Source of the DNA: a virus
Virus record (IMG/VR): IMGVR_UViG_3300018481_000039
Coordinates: 1 to 40,178 of that record
Strand: one strand, 5' to 3'
Length of the DNA stretch: 40,178 nt
In this document: positions 869 through 12,196 of the stretch, piece by piece
Numbering within the stretch: the first letter of the stretch is position 1
Layout: the number at the start of each line of letters is the position of its first letter
Notes under the pieces: model-generated
Database searches by the model: none
What the model saw: the letters and a program-made list of their open reading frames with translations, nothing else
Told to the model about the DNA's origin: nothing
Made by a program: the position numbers and the translations under genes

Positions 869-2239
869 ATGGCCGAGCATCAAGGTCCGAATAGACGCGC
901 GGCATGCTCTGTTGTTGTTGGCGGACAAAACGTCACGGACCGTCTAAAGCCCTATCTGATCTCTGTCAAGGTCATCAATCAGACCGAGGGTGGCGTGAGC
1001 GAATGTCATCTTGAGCTTGACGACCGCAATGCCGAACTAGCAATTCCGCCCGACGGTGAAAACATTGCAGTTGCGTTGGGATGGTCTGGAGAAGGGCCGC
1101 GCATCCCGGGCGAACGCGCACCATCGTCGCCACAAGAACGCGCAATGGAATTGGATTGGGGCGGCCCTGGAATGCGAGTTGTGTTCCATGGTGTTGTATC
1201 AAAAGCCGAGTCTGGATTCTCGCGACGTGGTGGCGGGCGTCGATTGTGGATTGATGGTACGTCTGCTGATCTAAAAAACAAGGGCAAAGAAATACAACAA
1301 GGGTCACATGGTGAAGGACAAAGGGATGATAGTCAAGCAACGCAGACCTCTGCTGGAGGCGGCGGTGGAGGCGCTGGTGGAGGTGGCGCTGGTGGGGGCG
1401 GTGGCGGCGCTGGTGGTGGTGCTGGTGGTCAGATTCCTCTCATGACTGTCATGCAAGACATGGCCGGCAGGGCAGGACTAACTGCGAAGTTGTCACCTGC
1501 GATGATGAAGATCACCCGTGACTTTTGGCACTTCAATGAGAGCGCACACCATTTTGGCCAACGCATGGCGCGTGAGCTTGGTGGACGCTTCTCGGTTAAT
1601 GGCGGGGTCATGAGCCTCGTTGGGTCTAACGAAGGCGTCAATGCTGACGGTGTGGCGCTCGGTTCTATTGATGCGGTATGGGGAGTGAATCTGATTGGCT
1701 GGCGTATCCATCCGTTCTCGGCACGCGCGCAGTACGGTCAGGCCCAGGCGAAATTTTTCGATTTGCACAAAGCGAATTGGCAAGTTATAGGACAGGCCAT
1801 TGGAGGCAGCACGCCATTTGGCGCGTCCAGTGCTATCGCTAACATCCTCAATCCGGTTGCTAACCAAACAAACGGGCAGCAAGGCAATCAGGGAACGACT
1901 GCTGACTCCGAAGGCAATCGCGGCAACGGTTGGGTGATCATCAATGGTGATCCACGGGCCCAGGCCGGCACTCGAATTACAATCAAGGGTGCGCGTCCTG
2001 GAGTTGATGGCTCATATATGATGACTGAGGTTGAGCACAACTATCAACGTGGTGTTGGCTTCACGACGCGCGCAAATCTCTCGCATCCCATTTTGAATGC
2101 GGCTCATTTCCCTGGTTGGATACAACGTGGGACGCCAGAGAAGCCAAAGAAGGACCCGGTTGAAGGATTGTTCCCACCTGAGCCTTCTTCTGTCGAACAA
2201 CCGCCTGTTAAAGAGCCGCCTGAGGAAGGCGCTGCCTGA
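869..2239 (+). CDS. P2 gpD-like tail/baseplate hub protein with polyglycine insert
   Basis: A 456-residue protein of the phage late-control gene D (GPD) family. These proteins are structurally related to T4 gp27/VgrG and form the hub at the tail tip that links tube and spike. The N-terminus (VVVGGQNVTDRLKPYLISV... then ECHLELDDRN) and the central part (RMARELGGRFSVNGG) match the family. At about residues 163-188 there is an almost pure Gly/Ala stretch encoded by GGYGGYGGY-type codons (about 1357-1432). It splits the protein into two halves like a flexible linker and is unusual for the family. The C-terminus is Pro/Glu-rich (EPSSVEQPPVKEPPEE). In P2 itself gpD is a tail protein; the 'late control' name is historical. 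Confidence 0.82.
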   Translation: MAEHQGPNRRAACSVVVGGQNVTDRLKPYLISVKVINQTEGGVSECHLELDDRNAELAIPPDGENIAVALGWSGEGPRIPGERAPSSPQERAMELDWGGPGMRVVFHGVVSKAESGFSRRGGGRRLWIDGTSADLKNKGKEIQQGSHGEGQRDDSQATQTSAGGGGGGAGGGGAGGGGGGAGGGAGGQIPLMTVMQDMAGRAGLTAKLSPAMMKITRDFWHFNESAHHFGQRMARELGGRFSVNGGVMSLVGSNEGVNADGVALGSIDAVWGVNLIGWRIHPFSARAQYGQAQAKFFDLHKANWQVIGQAIGGSTPFGASSAIANILNPVANQTNGQQGNQGTTADSEGNRGNGWVIINGDPRAQAGTRITIKGARPGVDGSYMMTEVEHNYQRGVGFTTRANLSHPILNAAHFPGWIQRGTPEKPKKDPVEGLFPPEPSSVEQPPVKEPPEEGAA

Positions 2240-2354
2240 CGATGTTCCTCCTGTGACTTGGACCGTTCGGCATTTGCCGTGTGTGTTGGACTGCCCTCCA
2301 TAACTCACACGTCATCGAACGGTTCATTTTTCAACCAATGTGAGGATAAACAAC

Positions 2355-3446
2355 ATGCATCTACGCGGGAAGGTATCATGGTTTGGCGGTCCTGAGGATA
2401 CGGGCGTTAGTCCATCTGAGGGACTTGCATTCATCTATGAAGTTGATATGGCGCCGCATTTGTTCTTGCCATCGCAGCCTCCCAATACGACAGGGCTGGC
2501 GCGGCGTCTCGATCCTGCTGAGTTCTTTATTGCGACCCGTTGGGACTACAATATCTATCCAAAGCCATCTCTGCTTGAGCATATGGCGATGGTGCGTGCT
2601 CCAAAGACAGGCAAGGAGTTTCTAGCCTACCCTGCCGATTGGGGACCAAACGAGAACACTGACCGTGTTGCGGACATTAGCAAGGGATTGATGACGGCCC
2701 TTGGCATTACAACCGATGACGAGGTTGAAGTTATCTATCCATATTCTGAACAACCACAGGAGCCCGCTATGCACTACAATAGCATCGTGATCTCTTCCGG
2801 TCACGGCAAATACGTTCGCGGCGCGTCAGGTATCCTTGATGAGGTTGATGAGGCGCGCAATGTCGTGGAGCTACTGGCCAAGGAATTAGAGGCGCGCGGC
2901 GTCACAGTCAAGAAATTCCACGATGATACTTCGCACTCTCAAAACGAGAACCTCAACACCATCGTAAACTATCACAACAAACAAACCCGCGACCTTGACA
3001 TCTCGGTTCACTTCAATGCCTATGAGCAAGTGAGCAAGCCAATGGGTACTGAGGTGCTCTATGTCACGCAGTCCGCGCTCGCGGCCGAGGTATCAGCGGC
3101 CATCGCATCGTGCGGCTTCATCAACCGTGGTGCGAAGAAAAGAAGCGACTTGTTCTTTTTGAATAACACCGACGAGCCATCGATCTTGCTCGAAGTTTGC
3201 TTTGTCGATAGTGAGGCTGATGCTGATCTCTATCTTGATCAGTTCTCCGCCATCTGCAAAAAGATTGCCGATGTGCTGGGTGGCGAAGCTTTGACACAAC
3301 CGCCAGTGCGTCCAGATCGACCGACACGCCCACCTGTACCGCCAATTACTGAACCACCACCGGAATCGATCCCGCAAATTCATATTGAGGTCGAAGGCGA
3401 GGTGATGGTGTTCATAAACGGAGAACAGGTCGGCACGAAGGGATGA
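2355..3446 (+). CDS. N-acetylmuramoyl-L-alanine amidase (endolysin) with N-terminal DPBB-like domain
   Basis: The C-terminal half carries an Amidase_3-type catalytic domain. It has SSGHGKYVRGASG (Zn-binding His), a Glu in DEVDEARNVV, SVHFNAYEQ (second His region) and ILLEVCFVDSEADA (catalytic Glu). Such zinc amidases cleave the amide bond between MurNAc and the stem peptide. The N-terminal ~130 residues (KVSWFGGPEDTGVSPSEGLAF, DNPB-type ARRLDP, CRWDY-like TRWDYN, FLAYPADWG) resemble the double-psi beta-barrel domain found in other phage lysins. The tail is Pro-rich, with RPDRPTRPPVPP, and ends in a short beta segment. I chose the ATG at 2355 because GAGG lies 9 nt upstream; a GTG at 2340 is in frame but unsupported. 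The gene leads directly into two membrane proteins, forming a lysis cassette. Confidence 0.85.
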   Translation: MHLRGKVSWFGGPEDTGVSPSEGLAFIYEVDMAPHLFLPSQPPNTTGLARRLDPAEFFIATRWDYNIYPKPSLLEHMAMVRAPKTGKEFLAYPADWGPNENTDRVADISKGLMTALGITTDDEVEVIYPYSEQPQEPAMHYNSIVISSGHGKYVRGASGILDEVDEARNVVELLAKELEARGVTVKKFHDDTSHSQNENLNTIVNYHNKQTRDLDISVHFNAYEQVSKPMGTEVLYVTQSALAAEVSAAIASCGFINRGAKKRSDLFFLNNTDEPSILLEVCFVDSEADADLYLDQFSAICKKIADVLGGEALTQPPVRPDRPTRPPVPPITEPPPESIPQIHIEVEGEVMVFINGEQVGTKG

Positions 3447-3541
3447 TTGAGTGCGGCGGTGCATTCTTATTTGGTATGATGTTCTCTTATGTACCGGCCG
3501 TGCTTTGTTTAGCGTATATGCTATGGAGAAGCAAAAGATGA
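3443..3541 (+). CDS. 32-residue single-TM microprotein in lysis cassette
   Basis: An ATG at 3443 overlaps the amidase stop (ATGA) and opens a 33-codon frame. The product begins MIECGGAFLFGMMFSYVPAV and ends YMLWRSKR. It has one clear hydrophobic transmembrane stretch of about 20 residues and a basic cytoplasmic-type tail. Its TGA overlaps a GATGAGGAG segment that serves as the Shine-Dalgarno of the next membrane gene. Tight coupling on both sides and the membrane topology suggest a lysis accessory such as a holin partner. No family is recognised and the role is inferred from context. Confidence 0.6.
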   Translation: MIECGGAFLFGMMFSYVPAVLCLAYMLWRSKR

Positions 3542-3551
3542 GGAGACGGCC

Positions 3552-3800
3552 ATGTCACTACTCATTAGTGTACTATACCTGCTACTGAACATCGGTATCT
3601 TGCTACTGTGCGTCGCGATCATTTGGTGGGCGCTGAAGTGGTTCGGCATACCAATCGATCCGATGGTATTCAAGATCGCTCAGTTCATCATTGTGCTATT
3701 GATCTTGATTATGGTAGTGAGTTGGTTTGCTGGCGTACTGCCGCCACGCGGCATCTTCAGCGGAACATACCCGCTGGGAAAACTTCTGGCGGTGGTATAA
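3552..3800 (+). CDS. two-TM membrane protein, candidate holin (Thivi_2564-like)
   Basis: An 82-residue protein with two long hydrophobic helices, roughly residues 3-30 and 40-62, separated by a short WFGIPIDP turn. It ends in a soluble GTYPLGKLLAVV tail. The first helix plus KWFGIP resembles small alphaproteobacterial membrane proteins annotated as the Thivi_2564 family, which also occur beside phage endolysins. A GAGGAG Shine-Dalgarno lies 7 nt before the ATG. Position after the amidase and before the operon terminator makes a holin function likely: permeabilising the inner membrane to time lysis. This is inference; size and topology fit a class II-type holin. Confidence 0.7.
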   Translation: MSLLISVLYLLLNIGILLLCVAIIWWALKWFGIPIDPMVFKIAQFIIVLLILIMVVSWFAGVLPPRGIFSGTYPLGKLLAVV

Positions 3801-3874
3801 GTCCTGTCCCATCATTAGGACCGGCGCCACCGCCAATATGCAATCCTTGCTAATTCTTTGCCTGATGCCCACCT

Positions 3875-3909
3875 AGGGCCGCTCATGATCGAGCGGCCCT
3901 ATTTTTTTT
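3875..3909 (+). terminator. strong intrinsic terminator at end of late operon
   Basis: A perfect 10-bp stem, AGGGCCGCTC (3875-3884) pairing with GAGCGGCCCT (3891-3900), has a 6-nt loop and is followed by A plus eight Ts (3902-3909). It ends plus-strand transcription of the tail/lysis operon just before the repeat array. It lacks a U-tract in the opposite direction. Confidence 0.92.
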
Positions 3910-3916
3910 GCCCATC

Positions 3917-4616
3917 GGACGCGCTGGTGGTGTTGGTACTCTCGTCTATGGCTCGCTCTTGCAGTATGGTGCGCTCATGAAGGATGGCTCGCTCTTGTAA
4001 CATGGTGTTCTCAAGTTGATTGGCTCGCTCATAGATTTTGGTGCACTCATGAAGGGTGGCTCGCTCATAGATTGTGGTTCTCTCGCAGACGATGGCTCGC
4101 TCTCTCGAAGTGGTTCTCTCACCTTTAATGGCTCGCTCCTGAATGTTGGTCCTCTCACTCACAATGGCTCGCTCTCTCCGCTGGGTTCTCTCGCGTAATG
4201 TGGCTCGCTCTCAAAGTCTGGTTCTCTCATATGAGATGGCTCGCTCAATGGCTTTGGTTCTCTCTTTTGAGATGGCTCGCTCAATGGCTTTGGTTCTCTC
4301 TTTCAAAATGGCTCGCTCCTGCTTGCTTGGTGCTCTCAAACTAAATGGCTCGCTCCGGCACTCTGGTCCACTCACTCATGATAGGCTCGCTCGCTTAATT
4401 TGGATCTTTCGTTTTTCATGGCTCGCTCTTCAATTTTGGTACTCTCAACTACATTGGCTCGCTCGACCAATTTGGTTCTCTCGACCATAATGGCTCGCTC
4501 TGGTTTGTTGGTACTCTCACCGGAATGGCTCGCTCGTTATTCATGATTCTCATGGCCCGCTCTGAACCAATGATACTATCACAGCTGTTGGCTCGATCTG
4601 ACACTCTTGTTTACTC
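3917..4616 (-). repeat. TIGR-like tandem interspaced guide array, distal block (about 19 units)
   Basis: On the plus strand the block alternates GGCTCGCTC and GGTTCTCTC (variants GGTACTCTC, GGTCCTCTC, GGTGCTCTC) every 18 bp, separated by 9-nt variable spacers. The true period is therefore 36 bp. Repeats of the first type start at 3950, 3986, 4022, 4058, 4094 and so on. A few 8- or 10-nt spacers shift the phase by one (for example at 4319-4328 and 4519-4526). Both edges are degenerate: GGACGCGCT at 3917, and GGCTCGATC then TGTTTACTC at 4590-4616. Spacers nearly always end in T. On the minus strand, which is the direction of the neighbouring Tas-like gene, the repeats read GAGCGAGCC and GAGAGAACC. 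The strand is inferred from that gene. One spacer pair is nearly duplicated in units 4238 and 4274. Confidence 0.9.
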
Positions 4617-4646
4617 ATTCTTGTTTACTCACTCTTTTGTTAAGTT

Positions 4647-4668
4647 GGGAGGCAGTTTCCCGCCTCCC
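4647..4668 (-). terminator. stem-loop downstream of PEP-CTERM gene
   Basis: GGGAGGC (4647-4653) pairs with GCCTCCC (4662-4668) around an 8-nt loop, 12 bp beyond the stop of the minus-strand PEP-CTERM gene. No U-tract follows on the minus strand, so it may be a weak or Rho-assisted terminator or a 3'-end stabiliser. Confidence 0.5.
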
Positions 4669-4679
4669 ATCATTATTTG

Positions 4680-5417
4680 TTAGGCGATCATCTTGCGGCG
4701 ACGGCGGGCAAGCATAATAAGTCCACCCATCGCAGCAATCAGACCGGGAAGGCCAGCACCCAGCAACGGACCGGGTACTGCAACAGGCACCAAGAAGAAG
4801 CTCTCAGGACCATCGTTCGCACCAGACCAACGTGCGAAGAAGATGACCTGATCGCCCAGCCTGATATCACCACGATTGATATCAAAGCCACTCAGCGTGT
4901 AGTCTGGATAGCCTGTGCCGTTGTTCGGCGCAAGTACCGGAACGCCGCCCGGTTCCGGCGAGAATGACGCCAGCACCGTGCGCTGCGTGAGGTTCAGAAA
5001 GTAGAACGACTCCAAGGTCTGCGCCTTGTTAGTATCGTTCACGTCAATGCCAACAGCAAAGCTGGTATTACCGGCAAGTGCTGCGAGGAAGGCACCATCG
5101 GCAAGTGAGTAGCCTGTGCCGAGTTGGTCTTGGCCGAGAGAGCCACCGACAGTCGCCGTCGAGAACATCAGATAGTCGTTGACGTTGCCGGTGGCGTCGA
5201 AGTTGTTGTAGCCGAACCCTGTCGGTTGTGCGGGTTGATTGGTGCCGCAGATCAGGCAGGGGTGGTTGCGAGGTTGGTTACCACCGGGTACGACCGATGA
5301 TAGCGTCAAGGTGCTGGTCGAGGGTGTGACCGCGAACAGGTCGATAGTTGCGGCATTGGCTGGAACTGACACCGCCGCCGACAAAAGCAGTGCCGCTGTT
5401 AGAAGAAGCTTCTTCAT
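4680..5417 (-). CDS. PEP-CTERM/VPLPA-type exported surface protein inside the array
   Basis: A 245-residue protein that starts with a classical signal peptide (MKKLLLTAALLLSAAVSVPA, cut near ANA). It has a beta-rich middle (FFARWSGANDGPESFFLVPV) and a C-terminal sorting signal: VPGPLLGAGLPGL, a hydrophobic helix, then LARRRRK. This tripartite Pro-TM-Arg tail is the PEP-CTERM/VPxxA-CTERM exosortase signal, common in alphaproteobacteria. The product would be exported, processed by a host exosortase-type enzyme and surface-displayed. I chose the ATG at 5415-5417 because it opens the signal peptide and has AAAGGA about 11 nt upstream. A longer frame to 5516 only reads through array repeats. It is flanked on both sides by repeat-array sequence and looks like host-derived cargo (a moron). 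Ligand or function is unknown. Confidence 0.85.
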   Translation of the reverse strand: MKKLLLTAALLLSAAVSVPANAATIDLFAVTPSTSTLTLSSVVPGGNQPRNHPCLICGTNQPAQPTGFGYNNFDATGNVNDYLMFSTATVGGSLGQDQLGTGYSLADGAFLAALAGNTSFAVGIDVNDTNKAQTLESFYFLNLTQRTVLASFSPEPGGVPVLAPNNGTGYPDYTLSGFDINRGDIRLGDQVIFFARWSGANDGPESFFLVPVAVPGPLLGAGLPGLIAAMGGLIMLARRRRKMIA

Positions 5418-5453
5418 TGTAGGTTTAGTCCTTTCAGAATGCTCCATGATATA

Positions 5454-5484
5454 CCGCCAGAGTTTGGAGCAAGAAGTCTGGCGG
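5454..5484. repeat. inverted repeat in PEP-CTERM leader
   Basis: CCGCCAGA (5454-5461) and TCTGGCGG (5477-5484) form a perfect 8-bp inverted repeat with a 15-nt spacer, between the array edge and the PEP-CTERM start. It could be an operator or a leader hairpin. Confidence 0.5.
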
Positions 5485-5489
5485 CAAAT

Positions 5490-6867
5490 GTTTCGCTCGT
5501 AGCATCTGGTGCTCACTTGATCTTTGGCTCGTTCTTATTTTATGGTGCGCTCTATTATAATGACTCGCTCTTCTTTTAGCGACCTATCATTTTGTATTGA
5601 CTCGCTCGCATTTCATGGTTCACTCGCAGCTCATGGCTCGCTCTCTCTATGTGGTACTCTCTTGCGTTTTGGCTCGCTCCACTCCAATGGTTCTCTCTGA
5701 GGTCTTGACTCGCTCTTCTTATGGTACTCGCATCTGGTATGGCTCGCTCACGTTGAATGGTACTCTCTGAGGTTATGACTCGCTCTCGGCTGATGGTAAT
5801 CTCAATCGTCGTTGGCTCACATCGTATGGTTCTCTCCTCATTGTTGGCTCGCTCCCACTAATGGTTCTCTCGCATTAATTGGCTCGCTCTTGTGGAATGG
5901 TCCTCTCTACATCATTGGCTCGCTCTCTCTATGTGGTGCTCTCAAGTCCTGGTGGCTCGCTCGCTTACATTGGTAACTCTCAAGGGAGATGGCTCGCTTT
6001 GGCTATTTGGTTCTCTCCGTTCATTTGGCTCGCTCGCATCGAATGGTACTCTCGCGATTAGTGGCTCGCTCATGTGACATGTTTCTATTCTGCCATCATG
6101 GCTCGCTCAAGGAAGATGGTTCACTCTGAGGAAATGGCTCACTCTGATCTTATGGTCCTCTCTGACACAATGGTTCGCTCACGTCAATTGGTACTCTCGT
6201 GTTTGATGGCTCGCTCATGTGGATTGGTACTCTCAGTCGTAATGGCTCGCTCACCCTGCGTGGTCCTCTCATACGACACGGCTCGCTCCTTGAACATGGT
6301 ACTCTCCTGGTTGTTGGCTCGCTCACACGCAATGGTTCGCTCTCTTCCGTTCGGCTCGCTCTGTCCTACTGGTTCTCTCGCTTGACATGGCTCGCTCATC
6401 AATCCTGGTTCTCTCCTCAGGTATGGCTCGCTCATGTGAAATGATCCTATCGGACATCATGGCTCGCTCTTGTCATTTGGTTCTCTCAAGGATGATGGCT
6501 CGCTCAGGTGCATTGGTCCTCTCTGACGTCATGACTCGCTCTGACCTTATGGTTCTCTCTGTCGCCAATGACTCGCTCATTATCAATGGACCTCTCATAG
6601 GTCATGGCTCGCTCTTCCCAAATGGTTCTCTCAATCCGCTTTGGCTCGCTCCTCTTAAATGGTTCTCTCCAGCACGCTGGCTCGCTCACAGAAAATGGTT
6701 CACTCTGACATTATGGCTCGTTCAGACTGAGTGGTTCTCTCGAAGGCAATGACTCGCTCTTACATCATGGTGCTCTCATGATAGGTGGCTCGCTCCAACG
6801 CTCTGGTTCTCTCAACAATGATGGCTCGCTCATGGACCGTGGTACTCTCGTAAACGATGGCTTATAT
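5490..6867 (-). repeat. TIGR-like tandem interspaced guide array, proximal block (about 38 units)
   Basis: The same organisation as the distal block: GGCTCGCTC-N9-GGTTCTCTC-N9 with a 36-bp period, strictly held over about 1.4 kb. First-type repeats start at 5526, 5562, 5599, 5635, 5671 and so on to 6787 and 6823. The last, degenerate repeat (GGCTTATAT, 6859-6867) touches the stop codon of the Tas-like gene. The repeats themselves vary little, mostly GACTCGCTC or GGCTCACTC, and GGTACTCTC or GGTCCTCTC. The 9-nt spacers are almost all different; TCTCTATGT occurs twice (5644, 5926). The edge near 5490-5590 is more degenerate than the Tas-proximal edge. The 36-bp unit with two 9-nt spacers equals the published tigRNA layout. 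Because 18 is a multiple of 3, several frames stay open but do not encode protein. Confidence 0.93.
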
Positions 6868-7652
6868 TATTTCAGATGCACATGACCGAGATGTGCAATC
6901 GGATACGGCAGCGGCGGCTCAGAACCTAAAATCTTTCTGTGCATCTCGCCATGAAGATGCGACAAGAAGAGCTTGACCGCATAGCGTTTTGCTCGCGCGT
7001 GGATATGAGCTGGGGGCAACTTGCCGATGATATAGCTTTTGTAAGCGTCAGTCGTTTGACCGATTTTGAATCGCTCCAACTTGGCCTTTGCCTGATCGGC
7101 AAATTCTCCAAGCTCATTGCGCTTCTCTTCTTGTGCCTTGCGCTCCTTCCAGATATGGCCATAGTAGCACTTCTCATTCCCAGAGAACTTTACAAAACTC
7201 TCACCGGCATGAAAGCAAATCACTTTCAGCGCCGCATTCCATGGCCGCTTCTTCTTTGCCTCCCAGCGCACAGTAGGATCAAGACCGGCAAAGCGCCAGA
7301 TGTGACCTACAGTTGGTGCCTTATGGATATCGATATGCGCGAGCAGACCGGCACTGATCACCGGTCCGATACCAAAGACGCCGCGCATCCATTCACCAAC
7401 CGGATGACCTTCAGTGTATTTATCTAGGGCGCGTTTGATCTGCGCCTCCAGCGTCGCACTCTGTTCCTCGTACCAAGACAATACCAAGTGAGGCTCTTCC
7501 TTGATCGAGCGGATTTGCCCGGCTGCGCGAATACGATTTTCTTGCATGGTGTAGTAGCTATCAACGAGGAACCTTGCCTCCGCATCACTCAGGGTTATGG
7601 CGGCCGTGGCAAGGTCACGCGTCAGACGTTGGATCGGATTCATATCAGACAT
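6867..7652 (-). CDS. tasA: Tas-like Nop/IS110-C-terminal domain protein (TasA type, no nuclease domain)
   Basis: A 261-residue protein. Residues about 40-85 form a charged coiled coil (ENRIRAAGQIRSIKEE... ATLEAQIKRALDKY). Residues 94-109 are GIGPVISAGLLAHIDI and 117-126 HIWRFAGLDP, followed by a basic segment, KKKRPWNAALKVICFHAG. Coiled coil, GIGP helix-hairpin and FAGLDP are shared by the C-terminal domain of IS110 transposases and the Nop domain of box C/D RNP proteins, which is the RNA-binding core of TIGR-associated (Tas) proteins. No DEDD/RuvC, HNH or serine-catalytic segment is visible, so it fits the nuclease-less TasA group rather than an IS110 transposase. An AGGAGG Shine-Dalgarno lies 7 nt before the ATG at 7652. 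Its stop touches the last repeat of the guide array, supporting one locus. Expected role: bind 36-nt tigRNAs and, guided by their two spacers, bind DNA. The call is structural inference from visible motifs. Confidence 0.85.
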   Translation of the reverse strand: MSDMNPIQRLTRDLATAAITLSDAEARFLVDSYYTMQENRIRAAGQIRSIKEEPHLVLSWYEEQSATLEAQIKRALDKYTEGHPVGEWMRGVFGIGPVISAGLLAHIDIHKAPTVGHIWRFAGLDPTVRWEAKKKRPWNAALKVICFHAGESFVKFSGNEKCYYGHIWKERKAQEEKRNELGEFADQAKAKLERFKIGQTTDAYKSYIIGKLPPAHIHARAKRYAVKLFLSHLHGEMHRKILGSEPPLPYPIAHLGHVHLK

Positions 7653-7679
7653 ATCAATTCCTCCTATGTGTGTGAGATT

Positions 7680-7916
7680 TTACTTTGAGTGGCCGGTCTG
7701 CCGGCCCATTGGATCGTAGAATGTAGTGCCGTTGTTATTAGTAACTGCACGACCTGTAGTCTGGCCTAGTGGATTGTAGAACGTTGTATTGCCGCGCGTG
7801 TCAGTCACTGTGCGGCCGACCACTTGGCCATTCGGGTTACGGACCGTTTGCTGCTTGGTTTGCGCCAAGGCAACACTCGGTAGCGTCAGCAGTAGCAAAG
7901 CGATAATGATCTTCAT
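7680..7916 (-). CDS. secreted 78-residue protein with tandem FYxPxGxxxGR repeats
   Basis: It starts with a signal peptide (MKIIIALLLLTLPSVALAQT). Three imperfect ~22-residue repeats follow: VRNPNGQVVGRTVTDTRG, FYNPLGQTTGRAVTNNNG and FYDPMGRQTGHSK. Such NPxGxxxGR repeats occur in small periplasmic proteins of alphaproteobacteria. It lies directly upstream (in transcription) of the Tas-like gene, 27 bp away, with its start overlapping the preceding gene's stop. Its function is unknown; it may be an envelope-located accessory protein. The product is probably host-derived. Confidence 0.7.
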   Translation of the reverse strand: MKIIIALLLLTLPSVALAQTKQQTVRNPNGQVVGRTVTDTRGNTTFYNPLGQTTGRAVTNNNGTTFYDPMGRQTGHSK

Positions 7917-8182
7917 AGTCCACCTTCTCCATTGCTAGCTTCAAACTCCTCGAAGCGTTCGATCTGTGTCTTGAACAATTTAATGATGTCCTTGCGATCA
8001 GCGCCATTAGAGATATAGTTGCACAGACCGCTCTTGTCATTGAACGGAAAGACAAGCAAGACAAATCCATTCTCGCGTTTGCCTTTGCCGCTCATAGTAG
8101 CGCCATTGAGGATTTTATCTAAGGCTATAGCCATAGCGTTCATAGCTTCTCTAATTGACATTTCAACTGGTTCATCTTTCAT
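7913..8182 (-). CDS. conserved small phage protein, unknown function
   Basis: An 89-residue protein with a helical N-terminus (MSIREAMNAMAIALDKIL) and a core FVLLVFPFNDKSGLCNYISN followed by GADRKDIIKLFKTQIERFEE. The pattern 'vFPF...CNYISN..R.D.i.lfk..i.rfe' is one I associate with small hypothetical proteins of many phages. No catalytic motif is evident. It overlaps the next gene by 4 bp and forms an operon with its neighbours. Confidence 0.7.
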   Translation of the reverse strand: MKDEPVEMSIREAMNAMAIALDKILNGATMSGKGKRENGFVLLVFPFNDKSGLCNYISNGADRKDIIKLFKTQIERFEEFEASNGEGGL

Positions 8183-8452
8183 TTATGGCTCCTCATGTTC
8201 TTGATCTGGTTCCGGATGATTCCAAGGCGGTGGCGTCACACGTTTGCATATCAAGATATTAGATACTGAGTCTTGCGTGACGGTGAACCACTTGGCCTTG
8301 TGGTATGAATAAGCAACGATGTACTCTTTAAAATCCTCCATCGTGCATTGCTTGTCGCAAGCGATTGTACCGGCATCTCCCATCTTCAATGTTCGCAAGA
8401 CGCCATGTGCACGCTGAGCGATTGTTTTAAGTTTTTGCTTTTCTGGATCCAT
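8183..8452 (-). CDS. hypothetical protein
   Basis: An 89-residue protein with a helical first third (KQKLKTIAQRAHGVLRTLKM), a middle CDKQCTMEDFKEYIVAY segment and a Pro/Glu-rich end (PPPWNHPEPDQEHEEP). No family is recognised. It is placed in the minus-strand operon; its start region overlaps the upstream gene by 26 bp, which is common here. Confidence 0.6.
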   Translation of the reverse strand: MDPEKQKLKTIAQRAHGVLRTLKMGDAGTIACDKQCTMEDFKEYIVAYSYHKAKWFTVTQDSVSNILICKRVTPPPWNHPEPDQEHEEP

Positions 8453-11696: not shown

Positions 11697-11945
11697 CTAG
11701 TTATGTACGTTTGTAGGGAACGTGACGCCCTTACCGCGCTTCCATTCAAAGACAGTGAAGTCTCCACCGTCCGTAATGATCACGCGATCAACGACGCCCA
11801 TCTTGACGGCGACATTGTTAGTGTAGTGATGCGCCACGGTCACGGCTTCTTTCGCAGTCACCCAGCGACGAACATACTCATAGGTGCCGTCGATGAAGAA
11901 CTGGCATACTGAGAACTCGCACTCGCCCTCTTCTCCGAATTTCAT
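11697..11945 (-). CDS. hypothetical protein
   Basis: An 82-residue protein beginning MKFGEEGECEFSVCQFFIDG, with YEYVRRWVTAKEAVTVAHHY and a beta C-terminus (VDRVIITDGGDFTVFEWKRG). Proteins with this 'eeceFsVcqFf.dg.yEyvrr.V...eAv' pattern are frequent unnamed phage products. The start abuts the upstream gene's stop. Function unknown. Confidence 0.68.
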   Translation of the reverse strand: MKFGEEGECEFSVCQFFIDGTYEYVRRWVTAKEAVTVAHHYTNNVAVKMGVVDRVIITDGGDFTVFEWKRGKGVTFPTNVHN

Positions 11946-12196
11946 TACATCTTACTCCTCATACATTTGACGACGGCCTCGATGCCCTCAGGGCCGATAG
12001 CGCGAGCGACGGCCGCAATGGTAGCAAACTGCGGACGCTTTGTCGGTCCATAGAACCAATTGTAAAGCGTCGTCGATGATACGCCACTATCTTGCGATAG
12101 CTGCCCATATCCCTTCCCGTTGACCGTACCGCGCAACGCGTCAATCACTGGGTCCTTGGTGCGAAAACTATATGTCTTGTAAAGTTTGGTTCTCAC
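11945..12196 (-). CDS. Cro/XRE-like helix-turn-helix protein
   Basis: An 83-residue protein. The segment GYGQLSQDSGVSSTTLYNWF followed by PQFATIAAVARAIG is a typical lambda-repressor-like HTH ('l...sGvs..tl..w..G....P...tl..ia.alg'). The start is a GTG at 12196 that overlaps the previous stop (GTGA), with GGAGG 6 nt upstream. It is likely a phage transcriptional regulator or DNA-binding protein. No operator site has been identified. Confidence 0.72.
   Translation of the reverse strand: MRTKLYKTYSFRTKDPVIDALRGTVNGKGYGQLSQDSGVSSTTLYNWFYGPTKRPQFATIAAVARAIGPEGIEAVVKCMRSKM

Follow-up and report, generated by a model that had tools for sequence, protein, structure and literature searches.

The closest described relatives of the locus analysed here are the TIGR systems, in which dual-repeat arrays lie beside a tas gene; repeats are 8-12 nt and spacers ~9 nt long, most arrays comprise 5-15 units, and the array is positioned upstream of, downstream of or between genes (PMC12045711). 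The window, which is the entire 40,178-base record of a soil phage (IMGVR_UViG_3300018481_000039), carries such an array in two blocks, and tasA, array block 1, an exported-protein gene at 4680-5417 and array block 2 are all located on the minus strand. The reading that we regard as probable is that two separate accessory modules occupy a single variable slot, which separates the late gene cluster from the early cluster converging on it, the TIGR-TasA system having settled around a resident gene.

On the minus strand, the array unit is GAGCGAGCCA-N8-GAGAGNACCA-N8 with a period of 36 nt, and 38 exact copies of GAGCGAGCCA, all on this strand within 3949-6831, were counted against 0.11 expected from shuffles. 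Block limits were taken from a PWM parse (10-nt repeats, spacers mostly 8 nt). Block 1 (5489..6849, minus strand; 73-76 repeats, ~38 units) is directly downstream of tasA and lies within 18 nt of it, and block 2 (3934..4634, minus strand; 38 repeats, ~19 units) is downstream of the 4680-5417 gene. Both the edge and the loop repeats end in CCA (box C) and begin with GA, not UG, and the D box is divergent. The earlier note had described an RNA-guide array of about 19 and 38 units, on the same strand, flanking a gene; the parse and the exact repeat copies confirmed this, and the array was further identified as a TIGR array with an adjoining Tas protein. Near-duplicate spacers were seen inside both blocks: block 1 has two copies of CATAGAGA, and block 2 has two of AAGCCATT. 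This hints that the array may grow by local unit duplication.

The tasA product (6867..7652, minus strand; 261 aa), a nuclease-less TIGR-associated Nop-domain protein with viral homologues, scored 209 bits against the TIGR-Tas model NF052498 (cut-off 100) and matched Pfam Transposase_20 weakly at 22.6 bits. A nuclease domain was not found in the product, and this, together with its length, qualifies it as a TasA as defined by Faure et al. (PMC12045711). When viral contigs were scanned with one array unit, at least 118 loci were returned, in more than 70 of which a tas homologue adjoins the array. Given this association and the match to the TIGR-Tas model, the locus is assigned to TIGR-TasA, its array being unusually long. 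A minus-strand transcript of the array would mature, with TasA, into 36-nt dual-spacer tigRNAs, and the nuclease-less TasA would then bind matching DNA and act without cutting it. Because the published cutting pattern implies, as derived here, that one target strand should read spacer A and then the reverse complement of spacer B, putative targets were sought in this geometry with a gap of -4 to +8 and 0-1 mismatch. When ~2000 guide pairs were compared with 1.86 Mb of phage loci, targets were no more frequent than for shuffled pairs, and the same was true of a self-target search of guide pairs against their own loci.

The far end of block 2 adjoins the intrinsic terminator of the late plus-strand genes (3874..3901, plus strand). 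Synteny markers on the late side were the amidase endolysin gene of the late cluster (2340..3446, plus strand) and the small membrane protein gene tm82 (3552..3800, plus strand), and those on the other side were the small early-cluster genes o7677, o7913 and o8183 (7677..8452, minus strand). The interval between block 1 and the exported-protein gene contains a minus-strand stem-loop, CCGCCAGA/TCTGGCGG (5452..5486), that is weakly better than shuffles (fold z -1.7 for the region 5418-5500), and a strong stem-loop (4646..4669, minus strand; z -7.5), lacking a T run on the minus strand, follows the gene's stop ahead of block 2. An Rfam search gave no match. A long glycine-alanine-rich tract was observed at 1352-1432 in the tail protein (869-2239), and the tail protein of the related phage L009 (contig G008) has one too.

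The gene between the blocks (4680..5417, minus strand) is intact, is preceded by GAAAGGA ahead of its ATG, and encodes a secreted beta-rich protein of 245 aa. Its N-terminus reads as a signal peptide, MKKLLLTAALLLSAAVSVPANA; the modelled body is beta-rich (pLDDT 78), with a C-terminal helix at residues 223-244 that is followed by a basic RRRRK, and the tail is VPGPLLGAGLPGLIAAMGGLIMLARRRRK. The PEPxxWA-CTERM model was matched by 6 of 14 aligned phage homologues (best E 3e-10), and the same place is taken in the window protein and other homologues by the form VPGPxxGAGLPG, which no curated sorting-signal model recognises. The single exported-protein gene with a PEP-CTERM-like tail that the earlier note placed between the blocks was thus borne out. 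No relative of the protein was present in Pfam, NCBIfam or PHROG, or was returned by a PDB sequence search, and the named phages and plasmids searched contained no homologue; the family is present in 59 other viral contigs. A search of 84,980 bacterial genomes yielded two distant relatives (34-35%), both with VPLP-type tails, both among ordinary chromosomal genes and both in genomes that encode an exosortase (PF09721). A strict DNA pattern for the VPGPxxGAGLPG tail found no match in 299 Pseudomonadota genomes.

Substitution rates were calculated against L002, the nearest relative of the protein (89-90% protein identity). The body gave dN 0.04 and dS 1.13 (dN/dS ~0.04), which indicates that it is under strong purifying selection, and dN was 0.52 for the signal peptide and 0.28 for the tail. 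From this conserved body and these variable ends, we infer that the body works for the phage and that the ends are suited to the machinery with which the host exports and sorts proteins. Foldseek returned no significant match for the model, and structural alignment gave Z 7.4 for an Akkermansia enzyme domain (residues 527-647) and Z ~5 for legume lectins as well as carbohydrate-binding modules. These scores fall inside the common beta-sandwich range, so that no function is claimed, and the likeness of the predicted fold to carbohydrate-binding modules and lectins is only that of a generic beta-sandwich. A surface role in the host is plausible: the host exosortase would process the exported protein and place it at the cell surface, where it would probably alter adsorption, superinfection or matrix. 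Directly upstream of the PEP-CTERM gene of L002 is a block of pentamer repeats, (GGCNN)n with variable NN (L002 3423-4290), which is split by recurring separators near ggaattcatttgttgatttgcgg; such blocks, which are not TIGR arrays, occur in several phages with the PEP-CTERM gene (also L166 ~7480-7880, L176 ~4210-4440 and L179).

One ground for the two-module reading is the position of this gene in relatives. Read in the window's orientation, L009 has the order tail gene, tm82, 4680-5417 homologue, o7913, o8183 and o8910; no array and no tas separates the homologue from its neighbours. The gene order of L006 agrees with that of L009 as far as genes were matched, and L010 and L005 also carry the homologue in this region, where the local gene order is shuffled or inverted. 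No matching tas and no dual-repeat array were found in the fetched flanks of the 59 viral homologues. The earlier note had considered that the gene might always sit in the array; among ~60 phages with the gene, it lies inside an array only in the window, and one distant homologue lies near array blocks. The gene would thus be an old resident of the phage, encoding a Sec-exported beta-rich protein with a C-terminal helix and basic tail of the exosortase-substrate type, and TIGR-TasA (tasA and ~57 units) would have settled and grown around it on the same strand. In the comparison with related phages that the earlier note proposed, syntenic relatives keep the gene without an adjacent array, and no close relative of the window phage was found; scans with the back-translated window tas and tail protein gave no close relative of either. 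The proposed order of arrival is therefore read from relatives of ~45-70% protein identity, a point that counts against the two-module reading.

A different possibility is that, in some phages, TIGR-TasA loci are regularly accompanied by surface proteins of the exosortase type and that selection keeps the two together; we consider this unlikely. It is favoured by contig G335, where tas, array and two PEP-CTERM genes lie on one strand with the first gene 219 nt from the array, and by G334, repeated in G319, where two PEP-CTERM genes lie between array blocks. The TIGR-positive contigs (2.13 Mb) contained five ORFs with PEP tails, every one of them within ~2 kb of an array; they belong to three viruses including the window, and 19% of the 2.13 Mb lies within this distance, so that the proximity without the window is 2 of 2 viruses (p ~0.04, by hand multiplication). 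PEP-CTERM genes near arrays in these two other viruses could mean a functional link, and they count against the two-module reading. Against the partnership, a second, independent set of 50 TIGR loci (464 kb) had no PEP-CTERM gene near an array, and searching 50 TIGR contigs whole gave a homologue of the 4680-5417 gene in one virus only, in two records. Moreover, the G335 proteins have little in common but the tail, and nearly all phages with the 4680-5417 gene are without a dual-repeat array. The link between PEP-CTERM genes and TIGR loci is accordingly treated as a lead, not a result, and the broader proposal that linked exosortase-sorted surface proteins are a recurrent component of TIGR-TasA loci in soil phages, as islands coupling RNA-guided DNA binding with envelope remodelling, seems unlikely. 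The positions noted for PEP-CTERM-tailed genes that adjoin or separate array blocks in two TIGR-positive viruses other than the window phage are L213 7510-11710 and L214 9462-14164, and a canonical PEP-CTERM protein (L338 7725-8654; TIGR02595 over cut-off) was found with a single matched TIGR unit ~2 kb off.

Some relatives carry TIGR arrays of another type. In L009, a divergent Tas-like protein, whose 59.8 bits to the TIGR model are below the cut-off of 100, is flanked by ~20 stem-loop units located ~8 kb from the PEP-CTERM gene of that phage. Each unit has the form arm-CA-spacer-TGAAACCC-spacer-arm', the arms change in step, and none were found in shuffles; similar units are present in L175. 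Stem-loop TIGR arrays elsewhere in the genomes of some relatives are also listed against the two-module reading; the occurrence of different TIGR types at different places in related phages, on the other hand, again favours independent modules. The positions noted for a stem-loop-type array around a divergent Tas-like protein are L135 14119-16693 (contig IMGVR_UViG_3300018481_000044) and L175 ~2013-4314, with the arms changing in step (CGGTCGC/GCGACCG, GAGCCCGGC/GCCGGGCTC, GCCCCCGGC/GCCGGGGGC and AGCCATGGC/GCCATGGCT), and both phages also carry the PEP-CTERM gene.

The earlier note had suggested that cargo landed in the array, or that the array was duplicated around the gene. Under the former, the gene entered a once-continuous array, either as a moron cassette or through recombination, and thereby made two blocks; this is improbable. 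In favour of insertion, both blocks have the same repeats and lie on one strand, a stem-loop comes with the gene, and the facing repeats at 5489 and 4625 are separated by 864 nt, or 24 x 36, as if in phase, a spacing that has a chance of ~1 in 18 or 36 and that also counts against the two-module reading. Cargo insertion is opposed by the same slot holding the gene in syntenic relatives that have no adjacent array. Furthermore, the GC3 of the gene (0.638) is native to the window, whose genes range from 0.47 to 0.69, and neither target-site duplication nor terminal repeats beyond chance were detected at its borders (longest direct repeat 5 nt, longest inverted 6 nt). Degeneracy is highest in the repeats next to the gene, on either side of it (permutation p 0.0009), a pattern closer to that of array ends than to that of a middle split recently. 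Duplication, meaning that the gene came to be flanked by two copies of one array, is very improbable: repeats and orientation are the same on either side, but no spacer is common to blocks 1 and 2 at 0-1 mismatch, and each block has near-duplicates of its own. Unrelated small ORFs also interrupt arrays of this type (L018, L030, L053, L055, L081, L085 and L134), and this, together with the native GC3 and the lack of shared spacers and of target-site duplication, supports the reading of two separate modules. As insertion is set aside, the locus should not be taken to show how TIGR arrays acquire cargo. Similar small proteins (MSNMKxVxLI...) were observed between TIGR array blocks in two different contigs, at L018 1374-1694 and L134 1639-1881, and mark a candidate accessory gene. 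Finally, a coding or structural tandem repeat in place of guides, to which the 18-nt half-unit (divisible by three) and the partial ORFs that cross the repeats might point, was ruled out, since all six frames of each block contain several stops, two repeat types alternate with non-repeating 8-mers, and tas adjoins the same array type in the viral loci described above.

The TIGR systems described so far (PMC12045711) are extended here by a long TIGR-TasA array and by more than 100 viral loci that have the same repeat. The exported proteins form an undescribed phage family of PEP-CTERM-like proteins in which the body is strongly conserved and the signal peptide and tail are variable, as expected if each phage matches the sorting machinery of its own host. 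If true, phages dressing the host surface via the exosortase pathway would be new, and we find this exosortase-type family, with its possible, unproven link to TIGR loci, the most interesting aspect of the locus. The lysogenic-conversion-type role that the earlier note gave to the gene is unproven, as a tyrosine integrase was not found in the window record, possibly a fragment; one repressor-like HTH is encoded at 11945-12196.

Compared with known systems, the window resembles CRISPR arrays in being a repeat-spacer array in a mobile element, and differs from them in its two alternating 10-nt repeats, 8-nt spacers and a Tas protein for Cas. The stem-loop TIGR arrays (PMC12045711), as in the syntenic phage L009, belong to the same broad system, and differ from the window array in that their arms form stems, the Tas-like protein is a different one and the array is ~8 kb from the gene. 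The PEP-CTERM/exosortase substrates of Haft et al. (2006, PMC1569441) share with the window protein a signal peptide, a C-terminal hydrophobic helix and a basic tail, and the likeness extends to homologues with curated PEPxxWA-CTERM tails and to chromosomal relatives in exosortase-encoding genomes; the window family, in contrast, is phage-borne, has no Pfam, NCBIfam or PHROG model, and in the window protein has the VPGPxxGAGLPG tail outside the curated forms. TIGR-TasA with a dual-repeat array (Faure et al. 2025, PMC12045711) likewise has a nuclease-less Nop-domain protein adjoining the array, two alternating 10-nt repeats with short spacers, a 36-nt period and CCA (box C) ends; the window departs from it in having ~57 units instead of the usual 5-15, repeats that begin with GA and not UG, and an array split by an exported-protein gene.
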